Assembly: GCA_016930315.1 (NCBI GenBank)
Contig: JAFGGX010000010.1
Location: 1 to 36,084, forward strand
DNA from: Candidatus Buchananbacteria bacterium
GTDB taxonomy: Bacteria; Patescibacteriota; Patescibacteriia; Buchananbacterales; UBA6539
Length of the DNA stretch: 36,084 nucleotides
Direction of reading: 5' to 3'
The position numbers and the translations under genes are program-made. How positions within the stretch are numbered: the first letter of the stretch is position 1; every line of letters begins with the position of its first letter. The notes under the pieces were generated by a model. It had not been told where the DNA came from. It did not search any database and was given only the letters and a program-made list of their open reading frames with translations. Below, piece after piece: positions 4,469 through 7,496 of this stretch.

Positions 4469-4544
4469 AAAAAATCGTTTTAAGGCTGCGTGTGTAGCCT
4501 AGCGATAATACTCTACGGCACATGTGCCGGGAAAGAGGCTTGAC

Positions 4545-5366
4545 ATGTCAAGCTCTGTGAAACTTACCATTGGACAAACGTTTTTGCTGACTGTAAAGTT
4601 GGCAGAGGTTGGGTTCACGACCGAAGAGGTGGCCATGCTCGGGCAGGCACAAAATCTGCTCAAGTATTCGCCAAGAATGCTGGGCATCCGAGACGTGCTA
4701 GATGGCTATTCGAAGATTGAAAGCAGACCCTGGAAACCTGAGTTTAACCAAGCTCTCTGGAGCTCGATCGGCAAGTCGGGATTAGATTTTCAAAAGTATT
4801 CCTATGTACCGATTGAGTCTTACCGTCTGATGAGATGCCTTGAGTTCGCCGGTTTCAGTCCAGAAGATGTCACGAAACTAGGCCAGTTCGCTGACCTTGC
4901 CGAGGTTCGCAAACTTTTGGCGGGAAAATCCAGAATCGTTTTGCGTCAGCACCAGCTCGACCTGGATGTGGCACCCAACGAAGTTTATTGCATCAGGAAT
5001 ACAGGTGTCGTCAAACATGTTCTGGGCGGGCAGATCGTCTTCGACCAAAAGAAGTTCGTTCCTCAGCCCCTTAATCACAGCACGAAGGGCAGAAAAAACA
5101 AAACCCTTCGTCAACTTGTCGCTGAGCTTGGCGACAAGCAATTGTGCAACGCCGCCCTGCTGAAGTTTTATATTAGGTATCCCAAGCTGATACCTTTCCC
5201 GGACTGGTCGAATGTTATTGTACTTTTTTGTGGTACGGTTTATCGGGATCCTGACGGCGAGTTTGTTCTTTGCCTTGAATACGTGGGAGGCGACTTCTGG
5301 CGTTGCCGCAAGGCCTATCTGGACCGGGAGGCTAACCAAAAGTGCCAGGTGTTGGTTGTGGCCTAA
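4545..5366 (+). CDS. Orphan hypothetical protein with an internal helical repeat
   Basis: Start set to ATG 4545 behind GAAAGAGG; internal duplication VKLAEVGFTTEEVAMLGQ / MRCLEFAGFSPEDVTKLGQ; C-terminal LIPFPDWSNVIVLFCGTVYRDPDGEFVLCLEYVGGDFW. Confidence 0.8.
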   Translation: MSSSVKLTIGQTFLLTVKLAEVGFTTEEVAMLGQAQNLLKYSPRMLGIRDVLDGYSKIESRPWKPEFNQALWSSIGKSGLDFQKYSYVPIESYRLMRCLEFAGFSPEDVTKLGQFADLAEVRKLLAGKSRIVLRQHQLDLDVAPNEVYCIRNTGVVKHVLGGQIVFDQKKFVPQPLNHSTKGRKNKTLRQLVAELGDKQLCNAALLKFYIRYPKLIPFPDWSNVIVLFCGTVYRDPDGEFVLCLEYVGGDFWRCRKAYLDREANQKCQVLVVA

Positions 5367-5511: not shown

Positions 5512-5874
5512 TTAGGCCTCAGGAGTTCCTTGGTGAAATTCCATTTGCCATTGGCCTTGATTTTTTTTCCAGATCGAGCTTCTTAAGGAAAGATTTTTTT
5601 CGCTATCTTCCTCTTGTTTGTTGGTTTTGTATGTTGCTAATATAACATCATCAGCTAACTCTCGTATTTGAAAGTCTGAAATTTTGTATTTAGGTGAAAT
5701 TGAGCTTGGCAGCCTTTCGATGATATTTTTTTTGTCATAAATTTTTCCAGAAGATCCAAATTCTATGAAATTATCTACTAAAAGTTCATTAAGCCTTTCA
5801 GCTGATTTTCTTGTTTCTGGCCGTAACAAATCAGTTTCAAGTTCAAATATTTTTTCTTTTAATTTTTGGTTCAT
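5512..5874 (-). CDS. DUF4440 / NTF2-like protein
   Basis: 120 aa, ERLNELLVDNFIEFGSSGKIYDKKNIIERL...SSIWKKNQGQWQMEFHQGTP. Confidence 0.8.
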   Translation of the reverse strand: MNQKLKEKIFELETDLLRPETRKSAERLNELLVDNFIEFGSSGKIYDKKNIIERLPSSISPKYKISDFQIRELADDVILATYKTNKQEEDSEKNLSLRSSIWKKNQGQWQMEFHQGTPEA

Positions 5875-5955: not shown

Positions 5956-7035
5956 TTATAGTTTTATGTCGCCTGTCAAGGCGCCCATTTTTGATATGGC
6001 TTGGCAACATTTTGTAAAAGTTACTACTGGTACAGGGCTGCCTGCAAGTTTTATATATAAGCTACTACCAGAAAAAAATGATCCATTTTGACAAGGAATA
6101 ATTTGACTCTTATTGTCTTTAATAGCATTAATTAGAGTTATGCCTCCAATTTTTCCAAGTCCCTTTTCTTCAGATAAGCTCTTAACTTCCATGTTTAAGA
6201 TGGCAGCTTCCATCAAATGATCTTTGTTATTGCTAGAATCGTGGAATTCTAATTTTACCAATAGTTCTTCTGATGCGTCTTCTTTAGAGATGTTGTTGGT
6301 TCCATAAAATAAAAATTCTCCCCATTCCGCCTTATCTTTAACAAGCCATGCATCTCCCTTTGATGGTCTAATCAGTATGCCAAAAATTAATGAGTCCGGC
6401 ACTCCAGTCATTTCATTGAATTTATTGTCTAATGCTTTTTGTATAGATGGCTTGATTGTTGGCACGTGTGATTTTTCTAATACTGCAAAAATATCTTTTT
6501 TAGCGTCCACTAGTAATTTTTTGTTTAATAGTTGGAGTCTTTCGTCAGTCTTTAGAGTTTTTTTGATTAGGGGAGTGTAATCTTCCTTTTCTTTTTTACT
6601 AGCTTTGTTAAATGTTTTTAGCATTTTTTGTAATTTTTTTGGATTGATTTTTTTAGGGCGACTATCACAAGTACCAGCAAATAATAAGCAGCAACTTTTT
6701 TTATAATCTTTTTTCAAGCCAGAAAGCCAGTAGTCTACTTTTGGTTTAATAAATTCATCAATTTCATCATATAATTTTCTTATATCTCCAGATAATTGTT
6801 TCTTTGCGAGAGCATCATTAATTGCTTTGTATAGAAAATTAATAAATTCTAAGTTTCCCGCTGTCGCTAGACTGATATGATTTTCATCTTTGCATTCACG
6901 ATCTAAGATGGTCTTACCATAAATGGGCATTATTTTGCATACATTATCAATTTTTATTTGATCATTGACTGTTACTCTTGTGTCAGCCATTAAGTATAAT
7001 CTATCGCTTAGATTTAATCCGGCGATTAAAGTCAT
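5956..7035 (-). CDS. Putative N-terminal-nucleophile hydrolase related to proteasome beta/Anbu/HslV, with a central insertion
   Basis: MTLIAGLNLSDRLYLMADTRVTVNDQIKIDNVCKIMPI: after Met removal Thr1, Asp17, Lys33; TAGNLEFINFL resembles the segment after the beta-subunit core strands. Confidence 0.65.
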   Translation of the reverse strand: MTLIAGLNLSDRLYLMADTRVTVNDQIKIDNVCKIMPIYGKTILDRECKDENHISLATAGNLEFINFLYKAINDALAKKQLSGDIRKLYDEIDEFIKPKVDYWLSGLKKDYKKSCCLLFAGTCDSRPKKINPKKLQKMLKTFNKASKKEKEDYTPLIKKTLKTDERLQLLNKKLLVDAKKDIFAVLEKSHVPTIKPSIQKALDNKFNEMTGVPDSLIFGILIRPSKGDAWLVKDKAEWGEFLFYGTNNISKEDASEELLVKLEFHDSSNNKDHLMEAAILNMEVKSLSEEKGLGKIGGITLINAIKDNKSQIIPCQNGSFFSGSSLYIKLAGSPVPVVTFTKCCQAISKMGALTGDIKL

Positions 7036-7279
7036 ATTTGTTCAAAATTTTATAATAAAAAGATGGATTATCTCCACCCCCTTTCATAAGTTTATTACTA
7101 ATTTAAGGTTATCCTTATGGCCACGTTTTGTCAATGCCGTGGGTAAAAAAACAACCGTTATCGCGATTGTTAATGATGAATGGCTGGTCACGTCAATCGT
7201 GATCGACGTGGGGATGAATGGGCCGGCCTACATTTAATTTCGGCAGGCAGGAAATTTAAGCAAAATAAAAATTGCAAAG

Positions 7280-7310
7280 CGGGGACGGCCGGGCTCGAAC
7301 CGGTGACCTC
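7280..7310 (-). pseudogene. 3' remnant of a tRNA gene (T-arm and acceptor 3' strand)
   Basis: Minus strand GGTCACCGGTTCGAGCCCGGCCGTCCCCG; no matching 5' half. Confidence 0.6.
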
Positions 7311-7395: not shown

Positions 7396-7422
7396 CAGGC
7401 AGGCAATAAAAAAAATCCAGAG

Positions 7423-7496
7423 CGGGGACGAAGGGGCTCGAACCCTCGACCTTCTGCGTGACAGGCAGACGCTCTAACCAACTGAGCTACGCCCCC
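7423..7496 (-). tRNA. tRNA-Asp (GTC)
   Basis: GGGGGCGTAGCTCAGTTGGTTAGAGCGTCTGCCTGTCACGCAGAAGGTCGAGGGTTCGAGCCCCTTCGTCCCCG; no encoded CCA. Confidence 0.95.

Follow-up and report, generated by a model that had tools for sequence, protein, structure and literature searches.

The window analysed here is the whole stretch of 36,084 nucleotides. It comes from a member of the Patescibacteria, a bacterium with a tiny genome. The gene of interest lies behind a tRNA-Asp gene. The first-pass annotation of this DNA had reported an open reading frame at this place and left its strand unstated. The ORF is real and uninterrupted; it is read from 7035 to 5956 on the minus strand and encodes 359 aa. The features of the locus are as follows.

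5512–5874, minus strand: DUF4440/NTF2-like gene (PF14534, E = 3e-19), 81 bp downstream of the gene below
5956–7035, minus strand: proteasome-like Ntn-hydrolase gene, P0001 (359-aa ORF, profile matches, AF2 model)
6142–6147, minus strand: Gly-Gly of the C-terminal IGG motif (residues 297–298), invariant in the four close members (alignment A10)
6400–6672, minus strand: 91-aa Lys-rich hairpin insertion (residues 122–212), predicted to be helical at low confidence
6856–6858, minus strand: codon of Gly60 in an AG motif, aligned with the oxyanion-hole Gly47 and nearly invariant in alignment A6
6934–6936, minus strand: codon of Lys33 (residue 34), invariant in A6
6982–6984, minus strand: codon of Asp17 (residue 18), invariant in the 14-protein alignment A6
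7030–7032, minus strand: codon of Thr1 (residue 2), the predicted N-terminal nucleophile after Met removal; Thr or Ser in 22/22 relatives
7279–7301, minus strand: second copy resembling a tRNA 3' end, a candidate att remnant, 20/23 identical to the 3' end of tRNA-Asp
7422–7496, minus strand: tRNA-Asp(gtc), a conserved anchor adjoining rplT, with variable DNA past its 3' end in relatives

The spacing of Thr1, Asp17 and Lys33 proposed in the first-pass annotation is exact in P0001 once Met1 is dropped from the count. Thr directly follows Met1, without a propeptide. Removal of Met requires a small residue after it. The spacing alone is suggestive only, since about 0.24 ORFs with Thr, Asp and Lys at these positions are expected by chance in a genome of about 950 ORFs, given the composition of the ORFs in the window. 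It is the homology evidence from profile, profile-profile and PDB searches that places the Ntn assignment above chance.

Searched alone, P0001 has no match in Pfam, NCBIfam, PDB, plasmids, phages, IMG/VR or the first GTDB scan, and neither PF00227 nor NCBIfam recognises it. In a single-protein search, PHROG_1040, "peptidase HslV family", matches residues 1–78 with E = 3.8e-4. Single-sequence searches are mostly silent and profile iteration is needed to reach the relatives. When the phylum is scanned with P0001, the single clear relative is P0002 (E = 4.7e-11), from a Candidatus Doudnabacteria genome; scans with PHROG_1040 and PF00227 give scattered Patescibacterial proteins that start with M-T or M-S. 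An HMM of seven Patescibacterial Ntn proteins, built without P0001 and P0002, recognises both, P0001 with E = 4e-7 and P0002 with E = 3.8e-5; among 1,000 shuffled copies, the best reaches 0.24. Iteration of the profile added two close relatives, L085 (genome G084) and L092 (genome G461), plus more distant subfamilies. With the translated matches judged by eye, a clear relative is seen in 18 of the 362 scanned genomes of the phylum, the own genome included. No relative was found with P0001 in six genomes of the same family, one of which (G004) encodes a distant Ntn protein (L038) elsewhere in the genome. A tblastn search of 50,697 phage records gave no match, and no relatives were found in IMG/VR.

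Comparison by hhalign of the four-member subfamily with the seven other proteins gives a probability of 97.2% (E = 4e-11). The 14-protein profile A6 matches 308 distinct sequences in PDB with a best E-value of 2e-11, and the best 60 of the 308 are all proteasome alpha or beta subunits. In the tree, P0001, P0002, L085 and L092 group together with support of 92/90; P0001 is on a long branch and joins another long branch (P0002/L002), so this pairing may be exaggerated. P0001 had been called an orphan that fits no named family. No named profile indeed fits it, but it is not an orphan, because it belongs to the proteasome-like family that Fuchs, Alva and Lupas surveyed in 2021 (PMC8665760).

All 14 proteins of A6 have Asp and Lys at the positions equivalent to 17 and 33. 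Of the 22 relatives, 13 have Thr and 9 have Ser as residue 2, a count that is partly favoured because the profile hits were selected in part via their M-T/S start. Since Ser is an accepted Ntn nucleophile, this mixture indicates conservation of the function rather than a break in it. Both Thr1 and Ser1 are named as nucleophiles in the text of the survey, where Gly47 is assigned to the oxyanion hole (PMC8665760).

AF2 gives no usable model from P0001 alone (pLDDT 33). With the 14-sequence alignment, pLDDT is 66.8 and pTM is 0.71; A6 was the alignment used for folding, and A7 and A8 were set aside because they misplace the insert or the IGSG strand. The core has pLDDT of about 75–92, and most of the insert and the C-terminus are below 57. 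The order of elements is S1-S2-strand-strand-H1-H2-strand-[insert]-strands-H3-H4-strands. The N-terminal part is composed of strands 3–8 and 13–18, two more strands, H1 (62–77), H2 (85–106) and strand 115–123. It is followed by the insert (132–210 helical, at low confidence), strands 214–253, H3 (256–263), H4 (272–290) and strands 300–316. A further helix is drawn at 338–351 with pLDDT below 50. In a Foldseek search against PDB, 146 chains are matched at E <= 0.001, and the best 50 are all proteasome or Anbu, with E-values from 1e-5 to 2e-4, modest TMt values of 0.34–0.60 and a probability of 1.00 for the leading matches. The best viral structural match, in BFVD, is a predicted phage "proteasome beta" protein. 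The predicted structure thus has the Ntn topology. On this, and on the conservation of the three catalytic residues, the earlier proposal had been made dependent, and it is supported on both points. The model and the alignment are not fully independent, because the 14 sequences were chosen by homology.

The Lys-rich insertion described in the first-pass annotation is also real. It measures 91 aa and separates the strands LLFAG and PDSLIFGILI. It contains 21 Lys and has a net charge of +12 in an otherwise nearly neutral protein; the share of Lys is 23% in a 90-aa count of the insert versus 11% in the rest. In the same hairpin, L085 and L092 have 64 aa each and P0002 has 43 aa. The six proteins compared from other subfamilies have 3–7 aa there, which makes the insert a trait of the clade. 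Its Lys-richness is private to P0001, and the insert itself is common to the three relatives. The text of the survey places insertions at the N-terminus, at S3/S4, after H1/H2, between H3 and H4, and at the C-terminus (PMC8665760). The site in P0001, the hairpin after the strand that follows H2, is absent from these described sites; it is thus set apart by description.

As had been noted, the DUF4440 gene follows P0001 on the same strand. An operon of P0001 and this gene was considered and is not supported: no DUF4440 gene was recognised beside the relatives (neighbourhoods read by eye, some of them scanned), and the DUF4440 gene has a promoter-like site of its own. It had also been stated that no unfoldase or alpha-type subunit is nearby. 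PF00227 finds neither an alpha nor a beta subunit in the own genome. No unfoldase neighbour was recognised within the window, and strong AAA_2 (Clp/HslU-type) matches are found on other contigs, in frames of 917 and 831 residues. Farther downstream, on the plus strand at 4524–5366, there is a 280-aa ORF with a GC content of about 49%, versus about 33% around it. It has no Pfam, NCBIfam or PHROG match. Homology of this ORF to an ORF behind the same tRNA in another genome (G003) was tested, and none was found.

P0001 starts 387 bp behind tRNA-Asp. Related genomes retain the infC-rplT-tRNA-Asp block, and the DNA past the tRNA is different in each genome examined. In one of them (G008), a 525-aa serine recombinase is encoded past tRNA-Asp. 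The second copy of the tRNA 3' end in the window is 143 bp from tRNA-Asp, and none is expected from shuffled sequences. Such a duplicated 3' end is expected of an integration site. The T-stem of this copy differs from that of tRNA-Asp, as if it had been imported with another tRNA end.

Several relatives of P0001 are found in mobile-type surroundings. The P0002 locus (L022) is a phage-like module with a ParB-DNA methylase, a gp3-like gene, a serine recombinase and a terminase, the last based on a sub-threshold Pfam match. L085 adjoins a ParB-methylase that is 53% identical over 420 aa to the one by P0002, and is near an AbiU2 HEPN gene. Of the more distant relatives, L116 immediately follows tRNA-Leu, and L117 has an AbiV HEPN gene nearby. 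A third, L088, is a Ser1 Ntn gene; in L088:6225-13283 it is located between tRNA-Leu and a serine recombinase, an HTH protein and a ParB-like/methylase frame, and its surroundings resemble the P0002 module. Beside P0001 itself, no integrase or phage gene was recognised. A search of the own genome for a terminase of the L022 type, run without a positive control, found none; of a ParB-methylase there are just a ParB-like match on the chromosome and one weak match to a methylase. Because no recognisable phage gene adjoins P0001 and no terminase was found, its mobile origin is deduced from the site and the relatives. The label of a defence system was rejected, as PADLOC gives no match for the Ntn proteins.

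Taken together, P0001 is best explained as a catalytically competent proteasome-like Ntn hydrolase of an unnamed subfamily marked by the insert, self-sufficient and carried as cargo of a mobile element. This explanation is given a probability of roughly 80%. P0001 is a variant within an established enzyme family and does not represent a new kind of machine; it is probably an active, distant single-gene cousin of the cutting subunit of the proteasome. Methionine aminopeptidase would remove Met1 and leave Thr1 as the nucleophile. Lys33 and Asp17 would then activate Thr1 for attack on an amide bond, and Gly60, the glycine equivalent to Gly47, would form the oxyanion hole. As it has no alpha subunit, propeptide or linked unfoldase, P0001 should act alone or as a homo-oligomer. 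The insert would serve as a lid or a docking element that restricts P0001 to specific substrates. P0001 would have arrived as accessory cargo with an element that integrated at tRNA-Asp, like its prophage-borne relatives. The mobile-type surroundings suggest an accessory role of P0001 in phage-host conflict. It can be speculated, with little confidence, that the helical hairpin insert is a substrate-capturing lid throughout the subfamily, and that these proteins are highly specific, self-sufficient proteases or ligases used as weaponry or counter-weaponry of Patescibacterial mobile elements in such conflict.

P0001 could instead be a phage morphogenesis or early-gene protease, the leftover of a decayed prophage without function in its own genome. 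The relatives in prophage modules near a terminase and ParB-methylases, and the tRNA-Asp site with its duplicated 3' end, are consistent with such an origin, and phage proteasome homologues exist (the BFVD matches, and PPH as described in PMC8665760). However, the ORF of P0001 is intact, its catalytic residues are conserved, and the mobile loci of the relatives bear the HEPN-type genes AbiU2 and AbiV; therefore accessory cargo fits better than virion assembly. That no relative was found among the phage records or in IMG/VR also argues against a phage leftover, which is considered unlikely.

A non-specific, uncapped peptidase ring of the HslV or BPH type that receives its substrates from housekeeping Clp ATPases would suit the match of the fold to ring formers and the presence of the two AAA_2 proteins in the own genome. 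These two frames, however, are sized like large Clp proteins and not like HslU, and no unfoldase was recognised as a neighbour in the window. NCBIfam gives no HslV match, the ring would have to accommodate a basic insert of 91 aa, and the rare and patchy distribution does not suggest housekeeping. Such a ring is quite improbable for P0001.

A transpeptidase or protein ligase like connectase would use the same Thr1 chemistry, with the insert closing the site and the acyl-enzyme being passed to another peptide. The insert is helical in the AF2 model, a mobile helical insert confers specificity on connectase, and a proteasome-like fold need not mean a protease, according to the survey's account (PMC8665760). 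Connectase, however, lacks H1 and H2 and carries its insert at S3/S4, while P0001 has both helices and an insert elsewhere, so that a ligase is very unlikely here. Finally, it is hardly conceivable that the spacing of Thr1, Asp17 and Lys33 is coincidental and P0001 not an Ntn hydrolase: despite the chance expectation given above and the silence of Pfam and NCBIfam, profile, profile-profile and structure searches converge on proteasome-like proteins, which refutes a coincidence unless they all share one misalignment.

Other Ntn proteins were met in Patescibacteria during the searches. A well-conserved Ser1 Ntn protein of about 320–340 aa (MSL.INTTTPEG.VLAADSRQSYRN) is encoded in six Patescibacterial genomes of different families (L050:877-1836, L097:832-1797, L099:850-1800, L100:703-1671, L102:787-1797 and L103:679-1671) and forms a distinct clade with support of 100/99. 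Near the Ntn genes of two different subfamilies there is a 129-aa Cys-containing protein without a Pfam match (L115:8361-8747:+ and L117:9210-9599:+), 62% identical across the two genomes. Two proteins of about 570–590 aa (L024:187-1899:- and L037:452-2218:+) combine an Ntn domain (PF00227) at the N-terminus with a long C-terminal extension, which DUF6941 matches weakly and below threshold. One Patescibacterial genome (G694) encodes canonical-looking beta-type proteins with N-terminal extensions at L049:1081-1668:- and L069:1501-2097:+; the latter has a match to 20S_bact_beta (3.3e-31) that stays below the curated cut-off.

Proteasome-like enzymes for which neither partners nor functions are known pose a standing puzzle. 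The survey distinguished 22 novel subfamilies and did not report any genomic context pointing to a specific function for them (PMC8665760). The clade of P0001 has a recurring context of phage-type ParB-methylases, serine recombinases, tRNA sites and HEPN-type AbiU2/AbiV. Together with the shared insert, this context is a concrete place to seek substrates. The clade is also a compact single-gene system for the effects of inserts on specificity in the Ntn fold.

Among known systems, the proteasome-like family as described in the survey resembles P0001 in Thr/Ser1, Asp17, Lys33, the equivalent of Gly47, and the beta core with H1–H4. Its members are likewise single genes without an unfoldase, and some are found in phages. 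Compared by description, P0001 differs in the long insert at the hairpin after the post-H2 strand (PMC8665760). In PHI and PMI-2 to PMI-6, a long insert is placed after H1/H2 or between H3 and H4; in the model of P0001, the loop from H2 to the next strand and the gap between H3 and H4 are each about 8 aa. PPH shares the phage or prophage association, but has about 140 residues and no H2, whereas P0001 has 359 residues and H2 at 85–106. Connectase (DUF2121) likewise uses Thr1 chemistry and has a proteasome-like fold with a helical insertion; its insert is of two helices, and the H1 and H2 that it lacks are modelled at high confidence in P0001. The 20S proteasome beta subunit has a propeptide and an alpha partner, in contrast to P0001. 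HslV is similar over the N-terminal 78 residues matched by PHROG_1040, but P0001 is about twice as long and no HslU partner is seen. Anbu shares the fold (ranks 2–4 and many others in the PDB Foldseek search), the lack of a propeptide and the single gene. The identity between P0001 and Anbu is about 10%, the 91-aa insert is absent from Anbu, and, while Anbu has a C-terminal coiled-coil helix H5, the C-terminal helix drawn in P0001 (338–351) is of low confidence.
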